Positions 27,872-38,139 of a stretch of 64,000 nt of DNA are shown here, piece after piece. Position 1 is the first letter of the stretch; every line of letters begins with the position of its first letter. Position numbers and translations under genes: made by a program. Source of the stretch: Geovibrio thiophilus (GTDB taxonomy: Bacteria > Chrysiogenota > Deferribacteres > Deferribacterales > Geovibrionaceae); contig NZ_CP035108.1 of assembly GCF_004087915.1 (NCBI RefSeq), positions 2,046,001 through 2,110,000 of the forward strand, written 5' to 3'. A model generated the notes under the pieces. It was not told the DNA's origin and did not search any database. It saw nothing but the letters and a program-made list of their open reading frames with translations.

Positions 27872-29113
27872 TCAGCGGATAACTACGTGGAGCTTTTTGC
27901 CCTGCTCTTTCCTGTGCTGCCTGAGTTTTTCCATGAACCTGTCGTTCATTTCGTCAGAAAATTCCTTCATGTCCCTTTCCCTGATGAAGTCCCAGCCGAG
28001 CCATTTGATTTTTGCCCCTTCAGGGAGATGGTTGTTCGCCTCAGGGTGGACAGAAGGGAAGAATGAGGAAGCCATAATGTCCGCCAGTTCAGTTCCTGTC
28101 ATATAGTCTATAATTGGTTTCAGCCTTTCCTTTTCACTCTTTTTGACAAGCATATACATGGGGCTTGCCATTGCGCCGTCCTCAGGCCAGATTATCTCCG
28201 TATGCTCGGTATTCGGGCAGGATTTGGCGAAAAACCACGGCAGAACATAAATAGCCGCTCCGGTCGACATGGAGCTTCCGGCTGCTTTTGCCATCTGAGA
28301 GGCATGCCAGCCGTCCTTGATATTGGGCAGAAGCATGTCCAGCCCCTCCTGACCGTAATCCTTCCAGATGTTTACGAGGAGAACCTCACTGATGTAATCG
28401 TCACTGCCGCCGACTATGATATTGTTTTTATACTCAGGCTTGAGCAGATCGCTCCATCTGCGGGGAACGGGAAGATCTTTGAGTTTTTTGTAGTCCACAA
28501 GAATGATGTAAGTATAGACAGCGTAAACAGTATAAACACCAAGCGGATCTTCGATTCCCGCGGATGCGAAGGGCTCGGGCATCGGCTTCATCTGGCAGGA
28601 TTCATAATGACCGCTGTCCAGAAAGCGGGAGGTAAACTGACTGCGGTAGAAGGAGCCGAAACCTATGGAACCTACAATATCGGGCAACTCGTCTATGTTG
28701 TGCGACTGCCATATATCTTCATACGGATCCGCCCCGCCGCAGCCCATCGGCACAAAGCTGACGAATTGTTCCCCTGTTTTTTCAAGGTGTTTCAACATCG
28801 CTTCCTCGTATGACTCCTTGAAAAGATGCTTAACGGGGCACACCATGTAGCCGAGAAAATCCGGCTTCACGGGGGGCGCGTCCTCTGTGTAAAGCATGGG
28901 AGTTTCGCACGCTTCTATACGCTTTTCCAGAAGCGGAAGGAAAATTTCGGGGTTAAGCTCTCTCATCTTCATAAATGAATCAAGAGTAAGGGTTTTTAGA
29001 AACGCTTCATTCTCCGAGAAAGTACCGAGACCGTTCATGATAAACAGTTCTCCGGTTTCGGGAAATTTTGCGAAAATGTCTGAAATACTCATTTCAGGCT
29101 TAATATTTTTCAA
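27872..29113 (-). CDS. Solute-binding-type protein without signal peptide, with DUF1858-like N-terminus
   Basis: 413 residues. Residues 1-70 are a helical module (MSISDIFAKFPETGELFIMNGLG) of the DUF1858/ScdA-N kind. From about 85 the chain looks like an iron- or oxyanion-type periplasmic binding protein (family 1): YAVYTYIILVDYKKL, PRRWSDLLKPEYKNNIIVGG and SPMYMLVKKSEKERLKPIIDYMTG are family-like blocks. There is no signal peptide or lipobox, so it should stay in the cytoplasm. Cysteines in YMVCPVKH, PMGCGGADPYED and YESCQMK could bind a metal. It is first in the ModE-controlled operon. The distinct name for this arrangement, if one exists, is not known to me. Confidence 0.7.
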   Translation of the reverse strand: MKNIKPEMSISDIFAKFPETGELFIMNGLGTFSENEAFLKTLTLDSFMKMRELNPEIFLPLLEKRIEACETPMLYTEDAPPVKPDFLGYMVCPVKHLFKESYEEAMLKHLEKTGEQFVSFVPMGCGGADPYEDIWQSHNIDELPDIVGSIGFGSFYRSQFTSRFLDSGHYESCQMKPMPEPFASAGIEDPLGVYTVYAVYTYIILVDYKKLKDLPVPRRWSDLLKPEYKNNIIVGGSDDYISEVLLVNIWKDYGQEGLDMLLPNIKDGWHASQMAKAAGSSMSTGAAIYVLPWFFAKSCPNTEHTEIIWPEDGAMASPMYMLVKKSEKERLKPIIDYMTGTELADIMASSFFPSVHPEANNHLPEGAKIKWLGWDFIRERDMKEFSDEMNDRFMEKLRQHRKEQGKKLHVVIR

Positions 29114-29748: not shown

Positions 29749-30780
29749 CTAATTACTTTTCACTTCCACTACTTCTTCTATATTAAAGTAATATTTACTG
29801 CCATCTTTTATAAACGGAATTTTCCCGTCCGATTCTCTTTCAACGTATAACTTTTTTCCTTCAACAAATAAAAAAGGTCTGTAATCATCATAAAGAAAAA
29901 ACTTGTTTTTGAGGTATGTTTTTTCACCTACTTTCTCTAAATAATAATATTTTGTATACCCGTTATGTTTAAAAACATTTCCACCCAAGCTCATTACATT
30001 AAATGCAAAATAGCCGTTTGCCCTCATTCTAACTACAAGCGGAACATCTTCTTCAGAATTTTCTCCATATACAAAATACTCATCCACATAGAGTAACCCA
30101 TTTTTGTATTCACCGGAATCAGGGATAACCAGAACTTCTTCTAAATCACTTTTATAATTGGGGTGATATTTACCAACAGGAAGAGTTGACAACCCGTGTT
30201 GATTGGCCACAAGAGATAATTTAGTATAGTCAGTTCCAGTATTCACTGCAACTGTAACTGCGGAAACAATGATACTCACTATACTACTAGTATCAATTAC
30301 TCTGGCTGAATAAGCATAAGCATTGCTTCTCCATATTTCTTTCTCGGTCGCAGTATTTACAATAGCGTATGACAAACCAACATCAACATTACTTGAAATA
30401 ACATTATAACCAGTATCCCATGCATTTATGTCAATATAAACTATTGCATCAGCATTAAATACCTCTTTAAGTTTTGAAATTGGAATATTTCTTATCAGTT
30501 CATTCTCAACAATATTCTCGCTTTTAAAAAAAGCATCAACAAGATGTACAGGGTATACATAATATCCCCTTTCAGCCAGAGGTTGCGTAATAGAATATCT
30601 AAAATGTTCTGCTGCATCAGCTGCTGTTGTCGTATTTCTTGCCGGTAAAACGAGAATTGATGTAGGGTGGGTATTAAAGTAAGATTTGTAGTAATCACCC
30701 TTTTTGACAGAAGATGACGTTGCACACCCTGAAAACACAAAACTTAAAAAAGAAATTATTAAAATCAGTTTTTTATTCAT
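29749..30780 (-). CDS. DUF799 (GNA1162-type) lipoprotein with C-terminal extension
   Basis: 343 residues. The signal peptide ends in FSGC, followed by the DUF799 body: SILVLPARNTTTAADAAEHFRYSITQPLAERGYYVYPVHL and FNADAIVYIDINAWDTGY. GNA1162-like proteins are about 215 residues; here an extra 130 residues of beta-rich sequence (about 215-343) follow. The family is genetically tied to CsgG-like and DUF4810 lipoproteins, as here, and is thought to form an outer-membrane-associated complex of unknown purpose. Start 2 bp after the DUF4810 stop. Confidence 0.8.
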   Translation of the reverse strand: MNKKLILIISFLSFVFSGCATSSSVKKGDYYKSYFNTHPTSILVLPARNTTTAADAAEHFRYSITQPLAERGYYVYPVHLVDAFFKSENIVENELIRNIPISKLKEVFNADAIVYIDINAWDTGYNVISSNVDVGLSYAIVNTATEKEIWRSNAYAYSARVIDTSSIVSIIVSAVTVAVNTGTDYTKLSLVANQHGLSTLPVGKYHPNYKSDLEEVLVIPDSGEYKNGLLYVDEYFVYGENSEEDVPLVVRMRANGYFAFNVMSLGGNVFKHNGYTKYYYLEKVGEKTYLKNKFFLYDDYRPFLFVEGKKLYVERESDGKIPFIKDGSKYYFNIEEVVEVKSN

Positions 30781-30782
30781 AC

Positions 30783-31139
30783 CTAATTCTCCGAATAAAG
30801 TTTAGATACTATTCTGTTTATAAAAACTTCTGACTCAGGATACGTTGTTTTTTCAAGTTCAAAAAATTTCCTGGCCTCGTTTCTTTGTTCATTTTCATAA
30901 AGAAGCTGCCCGTACTCGGCGTATAATCCTGGAGCAACTCTCCTTTTTTGACTGTCGGATGTTTCTATAACTTTCCTGAGTTCTTCTATATGCTTCTGAG
31001 TATACTCCTTGTCAGCGCTTTTCATTGCATAATTAACTGAAGATTTAGGATAATCTCCCCAATAATAGAGAGAAGTATTTGTTGCACAAGCAACAACACT
31101 GAAAGCAATTAATAAAGCGAATATCAAACTTTTGATCAT
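30783..31139 (-). CDS. DUF4810 lipoprotein
   Basis: 118 residues with lipobox VVAC, then the family block SLYYWGDYPKSSVNYAMK and a TPR-like helical end (GLYAEYGQLLYENEQRNEARKFFELEKTTYPES). It is the usual partner of DUF799 and CsgG-like lipoproteins. Its start overlaps the upstream gene's stop by 4 bp. Confidence 0.85.
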   Translation of the reverse strand: MIKSLIFALLIAFSVVACATNTSLYYWGDYPKSSVNYAMKSADKEYTQKHIEELRKVIETSDSQKRRVAPGLYAEYGQLLYENEQRNEARKFFELEKTTYPESEVFINRIVSKLYSEN

Positions 31140-31498
31140 GGCAATTTTACCTCATAAGTGCTATTTGAACCCAAGTAAATTTCTTTTGACATAATGAGTA
31201 AATTATCTTTTGTGTATACTTTCAGTTCAACCTTACCACTTTGAACTTCGTAGACTGTGTTACTGTTGCTGTCTATGCATTCATTCTCAGCTAACTCTGC
31301 CTCATTCCGTTTAATAGTGCAATGTTCAAGCTCAAAAGTATACCTTTCATTAACTGTTATCTTATATGTAGCAAACGCACTTTTATAAAATTTGAGATAA
31401 CCAATATCTCTGGACTGAACAGTTGCTTCTCTATAACCGCACCCAACTAGTATAAATGTAACGAAAATAAAAAATATGAGAACCTTACTTTTCAACAT
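31136..31498 (-). CDS. Small lipoprotein of unknown function
   Basis: 120 residues. Signal peptide with lipobox LVGC, then a predicted all-beta domain with two cysteines (EHCTIKR and NECIDS) that could form a disulfide. It overlaps its neighbours by 14 and 4 bp. It is an addition to the usual CsgG-DUF4810-DUF799 trio; I do not recognise the family. Confidence 0.7.
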   Translation of the reverse strand: MLKSKVLIFFIFVTFILVGCGYREATVQSRDIGYLKFYKSAFATYKITVNERYTFELEHCTIKRNEAELAENECIDSNSNTVYEVQSGKVELKVYTKDNLLIMSKEIYLGSNSTYEVKLP

Positions 31499-32423
31499 AT
31501 AAATCCTCCAGATTCAGTTTTGAAAAATTACCTTCTTCAATAATGCAAACAGAACCTTCGTCAGTGTAGTTGGAACCAAACAGTTGCACGACCTTTATCT
31601 TGCCAAGTTTAGTTCCTGGAAGCTCAATCAGAGTACCAGTCTGAGGATTCTTGATTTTTTTACCCTTTTCATACACATTGAATATTTCTCCAACAATAAT
31701 ACCTTGATTCTGCCCTCCAGCAATAGTAATTGTCGATTCATCAAACGTAAGAATATATGAACGCCATGGTTTATTAAGAAGATTGTTCATTAACCCATCA
31801 ACAACGCTGTTGATTGCTGCAGAAATGGCCTTGTCGTTCAGGGTTGAATCATAACCTACATGTTTACCCACGCCGAAAGCAGAACCTGCTTCACTTAAAG
31901 CTTCACCACTGCCTTCCTGTGCAAAAATAATAATACCAGTTTTTACATCAATGAGTCGAACACTTACTTTCGCATAAGCAACCTGTTGTATGGAACGAGA
32001 GAAAACACCAGTTTCTGAAACAGTTTTTCTTCCAAACTCACTTACAGACCCAACAATAAGGTAATCAGCGTTAATTTTCAGTGATTCAAGGCGATGAGCA
32101 TCTATTTCTTTTTTAAGGAGTTCATCATCACTACGCTCAAGAAGGATAAACTTTCCTGATTGTGTAAGCTTTGCAGACAAAATATCTGTGGCTTGTTTTT
32201 CAGCATTGTAGTCATTATTTAAGCCGAAAAGAGCAGATTTTGAATACATTGCTTCGTTTCCAAATCGAGCAATAGCAACCTTCCTCTTGAGGATATGTTG
32301 TTCTTTCCCAATAACTTGAGGCTGAACAACTGTAGGTACATCAATTTTAATTACTGTTGGCGTAGTAGTACACCCAAGCAAAAATAGCATTAAAAACATA
32401 AGTAAAATATTAAGCTTAGACAT
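31485..32423 (-). CDS. CsgG-like outer-membrane lipoprotein
   Basis: 312 residues from ATG 32423 (GGAGG just upstream; an in-frame start 11 codons earlier lacks a signal-like beginning). The lipobox is LLGC. The CsgG domain spans about 40-230: KVAIARFGNEAMYS, LSAKLTQSGKFILLERSD, NADYLIVGSVSEFGR and KVSVRLIDVKTGIIIFAQEGSGEA. CsgG itself is the curli secretion pore, but no curli subunit genes are nearby and relatives in CsgG-DUF4810-DUF799 sets have an unknown role. A C-terminal beta-rich stretch (GGQNQGIIVGEIFNVYEKG) follows. Confidence 0.8.
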   Translation of the reverse strand: MSKLNILLMFLMLFLLGCTTTPTVIKIDVPTVVQPQVIGKEQHILKRKVAIARFGNEAMYSKSALFGLNNDYNAEKQATDILSAKLTQSGKFILLERSDDELLKKEIDAHRLESLKINADYLIVGSVSEFGRKTVSETGVFSRSIQQVAYAKVSVRLIDVKTGIIIFAQEGSGEALSEAGSAFGVGKHVGYDSTLNDKAISAAINSVVDGLMNNLLNKPWRSYILTFDESTITIAGGQNQGIIVGEIFNVYEKGKKIKNPQTGTLIELPGTKLGKIKVVQLFGSNYTDEGSVCIIEEGNFSKLNLEDLYVEK

Positions 32424-32578
32424 TTCCTCCCCCTGTCTCTTGTGTTTTTTGACCAATTATTTATTATTCACAAATAAACAAGATATGTCTATACGAAAAA
32501 TATATTCACAGAGTTCTTTTATTGTTTAAAGTGAGAAATGAACATTAGTAAAAAAATACAATCTGCTACTAACTCATT

Positions 32579-35500
32579 TCAATTTGCCAATACCAGCACA
32601 CCCGCGGTTTTCCGCAGTTCAGCCGCAGTCAGGAGAAGGTTCAGCCTTGCCGCCCTCATATCGTAGAGAGCCTTTTCCGCTGCCGCTCCCGCCTGCATAT
32701 ACTTGGATTCGCTCACCAGTCCGGCTCTGAGCCTGTCCTTCATCTGGCGGAAGCTCTCCATCCCCAGTTCCGCCGCTTTCTCGGCTGTTTTCAGTGCGCC
32801 AGCGGCATATTCAAGCCTGCCGCTCAGCCTGTTCAGCTCCACATCAAGCCTGCCCCGCACGTTGCGCAGGTTTTCCGAAGCCTGAGTCACCTGTGCGTTT
32901 CTCTGCCCCACCAAACCCTTGCGTTTGCCCCAGTCAAAAACGTTCCACTCAGCCTGCACGCCGAAGGTGGTTATGCTGCTGTCAACAAACGGTACTCCGT
33001 CCTGATAGGTATGCCTGACGAACAGACCCAAATCGGGGATATATTCATCCTTCGCGGCGCTTCTGGCGTGCATTGTTTTTTTCAGCGCATACTCAGCCGC
33101 CTGAACATCAGGGGAGGTCAGATAAGCCTCTGCCGATGTGATATTCACATTTTCAGGTTCATCATCAAATGTGTCTGAAAGAACGATTTCCGTGTCCTTA
33201 GGCAGGTTCAGCAGATCTCTGAACTGAGCCCTGAGATCCGAAAGCCGTGTCTCAGCGGCTATGACGTTCTGCCTGCTGTTGAGGAGCCCTGTTTCAGCCT
33301 CCATCACTGCGGATTCCAGCACATTGCCCGCATTGAAAGCGTCACGGGCTTCCATAACGGCATGCTCAAAGGCTCCGACATACACTCTGTAAACTGCCGA
33401 CTGCTGCTCCGCCAGAAGAATGCCGTAATAAAGCTGCCGCACGGCAAAGGCTGTTTCGTTCACAGCCTTTCTCTGCTCCGCTCCGGCTTTTTTAAGATCG
33501 GCGTCTGCGGCGCCTGCGCCCTCATTTATTTTAAAAAGCTGTGTCAGCGGCTGTTTTAAGGTAGTGCTTACAATAAACAGGGAATTGCTTCCCTGATCTA
33601 TCTCAAGGTCTTCCGTGGGAAACCCGCCGAGACCGGGCACTGTGCCCAGCGCGCCTTTGTCTATTGTCACTACGCCGTTGTTGCTCGTCTGAGTATACAT
33701 GGATTCCACTGACAGCATGGGAAAATAATCCGCCCGTGCCGTCAGTTTCGCCGCCGCCTGCTCCTGTATTTTCGCCTCGGTTATTTTCAGGTTCCGGCTG
33801 TTTTTAAGGGCATATTCCTCCGCCTGTTTCAGAGTGAAGGTTTCGGCATTTGCCGTGCCCGCAAACAACAGCAGAACTAAAACGGCAGCGGTTGATGTTC
33901 TGCCTTTCCTTGACATAACAACTACATACAGCACAGGGACAACAAGAAGCGTAAAGAACATGGAGAATACAAGCCCCACGGCGATAACACTTGCCAGCGG
34001 GCTCCAGAGGCTTGAACCGGAGAGAATCATGGGAGTAACCCCGACCGCCGCCGCCATTGTGGTAAGAAATATGGGACGGAGCCTGCGTTCACCCGCTTCC
34101 GTAGCCGCACGCTCCAGACTGTGCCCCTCGGCGGTTTTCTCCTTTATGTAGTCCACAAGGATTATGGCGTTTCTCACCACTATTCCGCAGAGGCTGATCA
34201 GCCCCATGAACGCCGTGAAACCGAAGGGATTGTTTGTGATAAACAGCCCGAACATAGCGCCCGGCAGCGCAAGAGGTATGGACGACATAACCACAAGCGG
34301 CTCTCTGATATTTTTAAACTGCACAAGAAGGACGAAGAATATCGCGGCAAGGCTTATGCCGAGAGCAACCACCATCTGCGGAAAGGTCTCCTCCCTGTTC
34401 AGCAGTTCGCCGCCGTAGCTGATTTTATATCCTGCGGGAAGCTTTATAGCCTCCACTGCAGGGCGCACATCACCAAGAAGAGCTGAGGCGTAATAACCTT
34501 CCTTAACAAAAGCCCTCACAGTAAGCGTGGGGACTCCGTTTCTGCGGACTATGCGGCTTGCCTGAAGCTCCGGTTTGAGCTCCGCAACTGATCGCACGGG
34601 AACCTTTGCGCCTGTCAAGGGAGAGGTTATGTAATAATCCCCGATGTCTGAGAAGCTTTTCCTGTTCTCCTCATTAAGCCGCAGCACGACGGGAATCACT
34701 CGCTCCCCTTCCCTGTAGTCGGTGACTGACAGACCGTCAAACCCGCCGTAGAGATAGCCTGCTATGGCTGATGCGGGAATACCCAGCCTTGCGGCGGCGT
34801 CCGTATCCACATCAACATCTATCATCATGGAATCATTGAAGAAATCCGTATGCACGAAGTCGGAGTAAGGCACTGCGGATATGATTCCGCTTATCTCCGC
34901 GCCGATGCGCTTAAGCTCCTGAATATCATACCCGCTTATACGCACCTCAACAGGAGCCTCAAGGAGATTGCCCTGCTGAAGCTCCTTCACTATCACAAGC
35001 GCTTCCGGCGCCGTTTCCGCCAGAGTTCTTCGCAGTTCATACACAAGAGCGGATGTTGCCTCCTCTGAGGCAGTATTCACTATGAACTGACCGTATGCAG
35101 GGTCCGGCTGCTGAGGATTCACGTTGTAATAGAATCTCGGTGCGCTTCTGCCCGCAAATGAGGCAAAATGACTAATATCCTTGCGGCTGCCGAGTGCTTT
35201 TTCTATGCGGCGCATAATATCGTCTGTCGTCTCTATTCTGGAGCCCTGCGGCATCCATACATCAATCACAAACTGGTTGCGCTCGGCAGACGGAAAGAAC
35301 TGCTGAGGAACATACCTGAAATACAGCCCGCCCAGAAGAACAGCGGATATGCCCACCACGGCGGCAAGGTATTTGCGCTTCATGAATATGCTGATTGTAA
35401 CGGCGTAGGCATTCTGAACCCTGTCAAGCACTGTGCGTTTCCGCTTTCTGCCCGCTGTTTCATCATGCAGCCCCTTTTTGATGAAGAACCTGCACATAAT

Positions 35501-36961
35501 CGGAGTCAGCATGACGGCGACAATGAACGAAACAGACAGGGCAATGGATACTGTTTTCGGCAGAGCGGAGATAAATTCGCCCACCGAGCCTGTGAGTATG
35601 AGCAAGGGCAGGAAAGAGAAAATAATTGTCAGAGTCGCCGTGAGCACGGGAACGAAAACATCCCCCGCAGAACGCCACGCCGTATCCTCCTTCGGCACCT
35701 TTCTGTCCAGCAGTTCCACATAGTTATCCGCTATCACTATGGCGTCATCCACCACAATTCCCAGCACCATTATGAGAGAGGCTATGGAAACCTGATGGAG
35801 CGCTATCTCAAAGGTGTTCATTAAACCCAAAGTAGCGCATAGGGTTACGGGAATAGCGACAGCCGCTATGACAGCTACGCGAATAGGCAGCAGAATGATC
35901 GTTACGAGTATTACAGAGGCTATGGCGAGCATAAACTCATGGGTGAGAGTGCTCATCCGTTCCCTGACAACTGTCGGCTGATCCGCCACGAGATCAAGTG
36001 ACAAGTCCGGAGGGAGTATGCTTTTCAGCTCCGTAAAAACCCTTCCGATTGATTCGCCCAGTTCGACTATGTTTTTCCCTTCCTGCATCTCAACGGAGAG
36101 CAGAAGAGCCGCTTCGCCGTCATAACGCACCATGAATGAAGGGTCTTCGTACACCCGTTGGACATCCGCCACATCTTTCAGATAGATAGGGTGTCCTGTT
36201 GTGCGGGAAACATCTATCAGCGTGTTTCTGACATCATCCTCGGCACTGAAAAACCCGCCGGTTTTGATTGGAATCTTGTTTTCCGCCGATTCAAAACTGC
36301 CGGAAAAGCCTGTCACGTTCCGTTCCTTCAGCGCACGGGCGATCTTCATCGGGTCTGCGGCATATGCGGAAAGCCTTTCGGAATCAGTAGAAACAGTTAT
36401 CTGCTCCTGCTGCCTGCCGTATACGGCGAGCTTGCCCACTTCCCGCACTGAGCGGAGTCCGTCCTTTATTTTATCAGCGTAATCACTCAGCTCCCTGTAG
36501 CCGTACTTTCTGCCGTGAACGGCTATAAGCATCGCCACGGTGTCGCCGAAATCGGAGTTTACAGACACTCCGGCGACCCCTTCGGGGAACTCGGAGCGGG
36601 CTTCCGTAAGCTCATTACGCAGCTTCGCCCAGAAGAGATCCGCCTCGGTGACGTAATCCTCAAGCTCAACATTTATCACAGCCAAACCCGGACGGCTGGT
36701 TGAATAGGTTTTACCCTTTCTGATCTCGGGAAACTTGAAAATATGCTCCTCAAGCTTTACAGTGAGCCGGCGTTCCACCTCCTCTGAGGTTGCGCCCGGA
36801 TATACCGCAAATACAAGACCTGTGCGGATAGTGATTGAGGGGTCTTCGGTTCTGGGCATCTTCATAAAGGCGTGGATGCCCGCTATCACCACGGCAAGGG
36901 TAATAACGACCGTAACTATAGGGTGGTTCAGGGAGCTTTTGATGAATTTCATAACCGTCAC
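32579..36961 (-). CDS. Single-frame fusion of RND inner-membrane pump and TolC-type outer-membrane factor
   Basis: 1460 codons without interruption. Residues 1 to about 1015 are a complete RND pump with the relay motif GIVVDDAIVIADN in TM4 and twelve helices. At residue 1016 a methionine begins MSRKGRTSTAAVLVLLLFAG, followed by TANA and then ETFTLKQAEEYALKNS, a textbook signal peptide with an AxA site after 1039. Residues 1040-1460 are a TolC-family channel. No Shine-Dalgarno is seen before the internal ATG (33916). Because an RND C-terminus is cytoplasmic, the joint would act as helix 13 and could be cut by signal peptidase, giving two proteins from one. The last codons were altered by the neighbouring insertion. 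Confidence 0.85.
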   Translation of the reverse strand: MTVMKFIKSSLNHPIVTVVITLAVVIAGIHAFMKMPRTEDPSITIRTGLVFAVYPGATSEEVERRLTVKLEEHIFKFPEIRKGKTYSTSRPGLAVINVELEDYVTEADLFWAKLRNELTEARSEFPEGVAGVSVNSDFGDTVAMLIAVHGRKYGYRELSDYADKIKDGLRSVREVGKLAVYGRQQEQITVSTDSERLSAYAADPMKIARALKERNVTGFSGSFESAENKIPIKTGGFFSAEDDVRNTLIDVSRTTGHPIYLKDVADVQRVYEDPSFMVRYDGEAALLLSVEMQEGKNIVELGESIGRVFTELKSILPPDLSLDLVADQPTVVRERMSTLTHEFMLAIASVILVTIILLPIRVAVIAAVAIPVTLCATLGLMNTFEIALHQVSIASLIMVLGIVVDDAIVIADNYVELLDRKVPKEDTAWRSAGDVFVPVLTATLTIIFSFLPLLILTGSVGEFISALPKTVSIALSVSFIVAVMLTPIMCRFFIKKGLHDETAGRKRKRTVLDRVQNAYAVTISIFMKRKYLAAVVGISAVLLGGLYFRYVPQQFFPSAERNQFVIDVWMPQGSRIETTDDIMRRIEKALGSRKDISHFASFAGRSAPRFYYNVNPQQPDPAYGQFIVNTASEEATSALVYELRRTLAETAPEALVIVKELQQGNLLEAPVEVRISGYDIQELKRIGAEISGIISAVPYSDFVHTDFFNDSMMIDVDVDTDAAARLGIPASAIAGYLYGGFDGLSVTDYREGERVIPVVLRLNEENRKSFSDIGDYYITSPLTGAKVPVRSVAELKPELQASRIVRRNGVPTLTVRAFVKEGYYASALLGDVRPAVEAIKLPAGYKISYGGELLNREETFPQMVVALGISLAAIFFVLLVQFKNIREPLVVMSSIPLALPGAMFGLFITNNPFGFTAFMGLISLCGIVVRNAIILVDYIKEKTAEGHSLERAATEAGERRLRPIFLTTMAAAVGVTPMILSGSSLWSPLASVIAVGLVFSMFFTLLVVPVLYVVVMSRKGRTSTAAVLVLLLFAGTANAETFTLKQAEEYALKNSRNLKITEAKIQEQAAAKLTARADYFPMLSVESMYTQTSNNGVVTIDKGALGTVPGLGGFPTEDLEIDQGSNSLFIVSTTLKQPLTQLFKINEGAGAADADLKKAGAEQRKAVNETAFAVRQLYYGILLAEQQSAVYRVYVGAFEHAVMEARDAFNAGNVLESAVMEAETGLLNSRQNVIAAETRLSDLRAQFRDLLNLPKDTEIVLSDTFDDEPENVNITSAEAYLTSPDVQAAEYALKKTMHARSAAKDEYIPDLGLFVRHTYQDGVPFVDSSITTFGVQAEWNVFDWGKRKGLVGQRNAQVTQASENLRNVRGRLDVELNRLSGRLEYAAGALKTAEKAAELGMESFRQMKDRLRAGLVSESKYMQAGAAAEKALYDMRAARLNLLLTAAELRKTAGVLVLAN
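32595..32626. repeat. 32-bp direct repeat, right copy, inside the efflux gene 3' end
   Basis: Identical to 29700-29731. It encodes most of the final [10 protein letters not shown] of the fusion protein; beyond it the present gene ends VLAN, different from the tail predicted by the left copy. Confidence 0.92.
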
Positions 36962-38139
36962 TCCGCTGCCGGCTTAACGCCGTTTCCGTCCCTGAGCCTT
37001 TCCTGTCCGGCTGAAACTATTGTTTCATCACCTTTCAGACCGTTTTTTATCTCTATGGATGTTTTATAAAGCCTGCCTGTCTCCACTTTGACGGCATAGG
37101 CTCTGTTTTCTTTGACTACAAAAACCGCCGGAGCGCCCTGAGCATCCCGCACTATGGTGTTAAGCGGCACAGTGAGCATGTCCGCCCGCTCGGATGTCTT
37201 AACGGAAACATCCGCAGCCATTCCTATTTTCAGTAGCTTGCGGGGATTCTGCACTTCGATCTTCACAAGGTATGTTCTGGTGGCGGGATCAGCGGAAACA
37301 TTCACAAGCCGCACAATACCCTCAAAAACCTGTTCAGGCAGAGCAGCAAGGCGCACCTCCGCTACCTGACCTGCCTCCAGCAGGCGTATATCCTTCTCGG
37401 GAACGCCTGCGCTCACATCCACAGGGTCAAGCTTCACAATCTCAGCAACTGGGGAACCGGCTGAAACTGTTTCTCCTTCGGAGACGAACCTTTTGGACAT
37501 ATATCCGTCACTGACGGCGTAAAGCTTTGTGTCGCCTAAACTCTTACGTACGGAAGACAGAGCCGCCTCAGCCTGCCTCAGCGCCGCCTTAGCCTGCTGT
37601 TTGTCCTCTTTCTGTCCGCCGTTTTTTGCCATTTCGTACTGGCGTTCCGCAGATTCGTAAGCTGCCCTGAATTTCAGATAATCATTCGGGGCGAGACTGC
37701 CCGAATCATAAAGCGTTTTCATTCTTGCATGCTCATCCTTTGCCCGCTCGCAGGCTATGCGTGCCTGCTCAAGCTGTTCGGGGCGCACGGGACTGTCCGC
37801 CTTTTCGTATGCCGCTTTCGCCATCTCAGCCTGTGCCTCCGCCCTCTGCACCGCAAGCCTGTAGTCGGTCGGATCAAGCTCTGCTATGAGTTCCCCCCTG
37901 CGGACAAACTCCCCCTCGCCGGGGACAATCCTCATGACTCTGCCGGAAACAAGGAATGACAGCTTCGCCGGAGCATCCTGAGAGGTCACTGCTCCCCCTG
38001 CCGAAACTGTGAGATTGTCATTAACATGCGTCACTTCTGCTGTCTTCACCGGAATATATGTTTCATTATCCGTTTCCCTTTTATCTCCGCACCCCCATAA
38101 AACAAACAGAATCATAAGCAGTGTCAATGACTTTTCCAT
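36958..38139 (-). CDS. RND periplasmic adaptor lipoprotein
   Basis: 393 residues. Signal peptide with lipobox LWGC anchors it by lipid. The lipoyl halves (LSFLVSGRVMRIVPGEGEFVRRGEL and LYAVSDGYMSKRFVSEGETV) flank a long helical hairpin rich in Ala, Glu and Lys (about 105-195). It overlaps the pump-channel fusion gene by 4 bp, so the full tripartite pump is made from only two genes. Upstream lie CATATG repeats that may be a regulator site. Confidence 0.9.
   Translation of the reverse strand: MEKSLTLLMILFVLWGCGDKRETDNETYIPVKTAEVTHVNDNLTVSAGGAVTSQDAPAKLSFLVSGRVMRIVPGEGEFVRRGELIAELDPTDYRLAVQRAEAQAEMAKAAYEKADSPVRPEQLEQARIACERAKDEHARMKTLYDSGSLAPNDYLKFRAAYESAERQYEMAKNGGQKEDKQQAKAALRQAEAALSSVRKSLGDTKLYAVSDGYMSKRFVSEGETVSAGSPVAEIVKLDPVDVSAGVPEKDIRLLEAGQVAEVRLAALPEQVFEGIVRLVNVSADPATRTYLVKIEVQNPRKLLKIGMAADVSVKTSERADMLTVPLNTIVRDAQGAPAVFVVKENRAYAVKVETGRLYKTSIEIKNGLKGDETIVSAGQERLRDGNGVKPAAE

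Follow-up and report, generated by a model that had tools for sequence, protein, structure and literature searches.

One reading frame of Geovibrio thiophilus encodes an RND efflux permease and a TolC-type channel joined by a predicted internal signal peptide

The window analyzed here is a stretch of 64,000 nucleotides from Geovibrio thiophilus. On its minus strand, an adaptor gene lies directly upstream of a single frame in which an RND permease, a joint and an outer membrane factor (OMF) follow one another without a stop, so that two genes encode a tripartite pump (Table 1). The frame comprises 1460 codons if read from its GTG, in which case it shares 4 bases with the adaptor frame. The ATG at 36952 is the likelier start, because it is preceded by a GGAG-type Shine-Dalgarno-like site (duplex energy -6.1); it gives a protein of 1457 amino acids, and the adaptor start has an anti-Shine-Dalgarno duplex energy of -8.9. 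An earlier sequence-only reading of this DNA had proposed that an RND pump and a TolC-type channel share one frame and that only two genes yield the tripartite pump. Both proposals agree with the Pfam assignments, which place ACR_tran and OEP in one protein, and with the position of the adaptor gene, whereas its numbering of the internal methionine as residue 1016 is correct when counted from the GTG and becomes 1013 from the likelier ATG. The operon is adjoined by a low-GC (about 35%) lipoprotein-like cluster (window positions 29749-32456) containing a CsgG-like gene, two small genes and a gene for a GNA1162-like lipoprotein. A chemotaxis receptor gene is divergent from the pump operon, and an SBP_bac_6 solute-binding protein, encoded at 27872-29113 on the minus strand, has a DUF1858-like domain in front and no obvious signal peptide.

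Table 1. Features of the pump operon in window coordinates; residues are numbered from the ATG at 36952, and a slash marks the predicted cut
Feature	Position	Strand	Remarks
Whole fused frame	32579..36961	-	GTG start 36961; likelier ATG start 36952; stop 32579-32581
Periplasmic adaptor (membrane fusion protein, HlyD_D23/HlyD_3)	36958..38139	-	Pfam; first gene of the two-gene operon
RND permease part, TriC/MexK-like, 12 predicted transmembrane helices	33917..36952	-	Residues 1-1012; D402/D403 in TM4
Joint, predicted internal signal peptide MSRKGRTSTAAVLVLLLFAGTANA	33845..33916	-	Residues 1013-1036; basic n-region, hydrophobic core, A-x-A site
Predicted signal peptidase I site A1034-N-A1036/E1037	33842..33853	-	Both Ala conserved among fused relatives
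Mature outer membrane factor (OMF), TolC fold in the model	32582..33844	-	Residues 1037-1457

The pump and channel parts are themselves of ordinary kinds. The first is matched over the full domain by PF00873 (ACR_tran, positions 1-1020 of 1021, at residues 3-1012), and its hydrophobic peaks are consistent with 12 helices. D402 and D403, invariant in an alignment of seven fused proteins, are presumably the proton-relay aspartate pair of TM4 known from AcrB. The NCBIfam model RND_permease_2 scores 523 bits against a curated cut-off of 1250, so the RND half is related to that subfamily but lies outside it. Its closest solved relatives, aligned over residues 12-1011, are PDB 6vej (E about 1e-143), which we take to be TriC although the entry itself says only probable RND efflux transporter, and MexK of Pseudomonas aeruginosa (E about 1e-142). 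Since TriC and MexK are the nearest solved relatives, hydrophobic compounds are our best guess for the substrate. The fused operon of Geomonas has a divergent neighbour upstream of its adaptor gene, which encodes a sigma-54-dependent activator with a GAF-like domain (L038, 2282-3964, minus strand) and may be a regulator.

The second half contains OEP (PF02321) in two stretches, beginning at residue 1041. A sequence search of this part against the PDB gave no match, and a fold search was therefore used: the structure model of the mature OMF has a TolC fold (mean pLDDT 82), and the best Foldseek matches are TolC structures (E about 2e-17). In this model the first barrel strand begins at mature residue 45, i.e., 44 residues past the cut. 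The model of the RND part with the joint was too poor for use (pLDDT 60, under 50 in the joint). The lipobox cysteine of lipidated OMFs of the OprM/NodT type is absent from the cut site, which reads A-N-A/E.

A search for the same fusion in relatives, as suggested with the sequence-only reading, was carried out on whole genomes and recovered it uninterrupted in both congeners (at 89 and 84% identity) and, at 55%, in three sister-genus genomes; in the remaining family genomes the only RND genes are ordinary ones with about 29% identity. Two Geomonas species carry the fusion at 57% identity, and in their class, the Desulfuromonadia, about 30 of 277 genomes contain a copy, counted at scores above 2000 bits, whose single frame begins at the RND start, crosses the joint and continues into the OMF. 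None of these copies is split at the joint; one (G260) is shortened within the OMF and another (G256) leaves the contig end. At greater distance, full-length fusions are carried by Gemmatirosa plasmids, by Persicobacter and by two additional genomes from the Geomonas phylum, and no fused copies were detected in three further phyla at E 1e-200. Three long matches from the family search (L104, L105 and L108) turned out to be adjoining separate genes. Every full-length relative recovered has an open joint. About 40 species, distributed over several phyla, have retained this same fused gene, and the fusion is therefore real and functional.

The joint reads ...VPVLYVVV-MSRKGRTST-AAVLVLLLFA-GTANA/ETFTLKQAEEYALK; basic residues come after the internal ATG (residue 1013), then a hydrophobic core spanning about 1022-1031 and finally the site A1034-N-A1036/E1037. 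The positive start, hydrophobic core and TANA/E site had already been described as a complete signal peptide, and this anatomy proved to be shared: each of 41 joints combines a stretch of net positive charge with a hydrophobic core of some 10 or more residues and a small-x-small cut site. With cut sites chosen by a rule that favours Ala, this residue occupies position -3 in 39 joints and position -1 in 40 (A-x-A in 39), and +1 is usually Glu; independently of the rule, A1034 and A1036 are invariant in the seven-sequence alignment. The shortest joint has 24 codons and the longest 38; mapped on the RND tree, these lengths require at least 14 changes, each by whole codons. Because dN/dS is low in the RND (0.04-0.09) and OMF (0.06-0.18) halves, and higher but below 1 in the joint (0.2-0.6), both halves are functional and under purifying selection, and the joint drifts like signal peptides do.

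Taken together, we infer from the sequence export through the joint, cleavage after A1036 and 1:1 output. The ribosome would make a single RND-OMF chain, the RND part of which would insert with 12 helices and a cytoplasmic C-terminus. The basic joint with its short hydrophobic core would then form a thirteenth segment running in-to-out and function as an internal Sec signal peptide that exports the TolC-type part. The orientation fits export: the RND part has its end in the cytoplasm, and the core, after a positive n-region, heads outward. Signal peptidase I would cut after A1036; the mature channel could then be assembled in the outer membrane, and what stays behind would be a normal RND subunit, perhaps still bearing a signal-peptide stub. 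A single chain that is subsequently cut would give RND and channel 1:1, in line with the 3:6:3 ratio of MexAB-OprM, in which the membranes are about 23 nm apart and RND and OMF are without contact (PMC4754349). To release a C-terminal domain experimentally, a published construct has made use of a signal peptidase I site positioned behind the final helix of a polytopic protein (PMC5449189). We consider it very probable that the window gene encodes a natural polyprotein of this kind, cut by signal peptidase I to give pump and channel in equal numbers. There is a small chance that cleavage is slow or regulated, and that the uncut precursor serves as an assembly intermediate in which three exported channel chains stay beside the RND trimer until they are handed over to the adaptor and the assembly machinery; the fusion would then couple the assembly of pump and channel, beyond their amounts alone.

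Less probable is that the OMF is made mainly by an internal start at the ATG at 33916, the fused frame being incidental. An in-frame ATG does stand just before the signal peptide in the window, the congeners, the sister genus and a minority of the Desulfuromonadia, and initiation may be independent of a Shine-Dalgarno sequence where this ATG exists, but most Desulfuromonadia joints have Lys in place of the internal Met. The ATG of the window is without a Shine-Dalgarno site, as the sequence-only reading had noted (duplex energy +0.9, against -6.1 at the RND start and -8.9 at the adaptor start). The anti-Shine-Dalgarno energies gave no support to an internal ribosome start among the relatives either: start candidates in the joints (-2.45) resemble in-frame codons of the RND body (-2.58), compared with -6.62 at true RND starts. 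Moreover, a gene read in this way would need neither a stop-free joint nor at least 14 frame-keeping changes of length. Separate initiation of the OMF is thus unlikely, given that the internal ATG lacks a ribosome site and that most relatives do not have this ATG at all.

Cleavage can also be weighed against an uncut chain, in which the joint would be a permanent thirteenth helix tethering the channel to the pump. The hydrophobicity of the joint and the conservation of the fusion suit such a tether, but the A-x-A at the core exit is conserved, the core is short for a membrane helix, and the fast-changing joint behaves like a signal peptide. Because the 44 residues leading to the first barrel strand extend over at most about 15-16 nm when fully stretched, against 23 nm between the membranes, the OMF model indicates that in a MexAB-OprM-like pump the outer membrane would be out of reach for an uncut channel, and we regard the tether as very improbable. 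Finally, a sequencing or assembly error that deleted the stop between two ordinary genes has a negligible chance of being the explanation. In its favour, distant relatives among the Bacteroidota encode the two proteins by separate genes, which frequently overlap by 4 bases; an artefact is nevertheless ruled out, since some 40 species sequenced independently of one another all show this frame without interruption.

In trees of the RND part, the window sequence falls inside a strongly supported, all-fused clade with the Desulfuromonadia. The nearest split relatives are mostly Bacteroidota (35-50% identity), whose separate RND and OMF genes either overlap or are spaced by anything from a few bases to tens of bases. 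A frameshift or missed stop, or clearly separate genes with an independent ribosome site in relatives, had been named in advance as evidence against the fusion; neither applies among close relatives, which are all fused without a stop at the joint, and two genes occur at the distance of the Bacteroidota. As these more distant relatives have two genes, the fusion is either derived or was secondarily split in Bacteroidota. The RND tree requires three changes between the fused and split states, and both one old fusion with later fissions and two to three fusions would fit. The presence of the fusion in only some genera of the family, together with the nesting beside the Desulfuromonadia, suggests horizontal transfer of the fused gene. 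Two divergent full-length RND-OMF fusions (L132 and L133, from genomes G760 and G796) group with the split Bacteroidota genes, a placement that suggests repeated fusion or fission. In one MAG from the same order (L106, 2251-6750, plus strand; G026:C71), an unrelated AcrB-like RND and a lipoprotein-type OMF share a single frame of 1500 residues whose joint carries the lipobox LITGC. Their orthologues are encoded by separate genes in G017 and in G019, a congener of this MAG; the frame is either a second fusion of recent origin or the result of a base error confined to this MAG.

Tripartite pumps normally consist of three proteins from three genes, and the channel is often shared. Here, one reading frame would hold channel and motor at a 1:1 ratio in dozens of species, which provides a natural system for internal signal-peptide processing after a 12-helix protein and allows one to ask whether pumps benefit from fixed pump:channel ratios. 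No paper describing a natural RND-OMF fusion was found in the open-access library searched. The full-length fusion of Persicobacter psychrovividus (WP_338399011.1; 1467 amino acids, 38% identity to the window protein) follows an adaptor gene, as in the window, and its annotation, "efflux RND transporter permease subunit", names the permease alone, so that its channel goes uncounted.

Among known systems, the MFP-RND-OMF operons of Bacteroidota (e.g., Parabacteroides L102, L040 and L083) have the RND family and gene order in common with the window, and their OMF, like that of the window by prediction, has a signal peptide of its own; their RND and OMF, however, are separate genes. The solved chains of TriC (6vej) and MexK stop after TM12 (1022-1031 residues), unlike the window protein, and the OMF of these pumps is a separate protein. 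The OEP domain and the TolC fold are common to the window OMF and to E. coli TolC, CusC and OprM, at only about 15% identity; in contrast to these proteins, the window OMF is the C-terminal part of an RND gene, and its predicted signal peptide is internal. The FbcH polyprotein of Bradyrhizobium resembles the window gene in that a polytopic membrane protein and an exported protein, cytochromes b and c1, come from one gene and are parted at an internal signal peptide; it differs in that it serves a respiratory complex and both of its products remain in the inner membrane.
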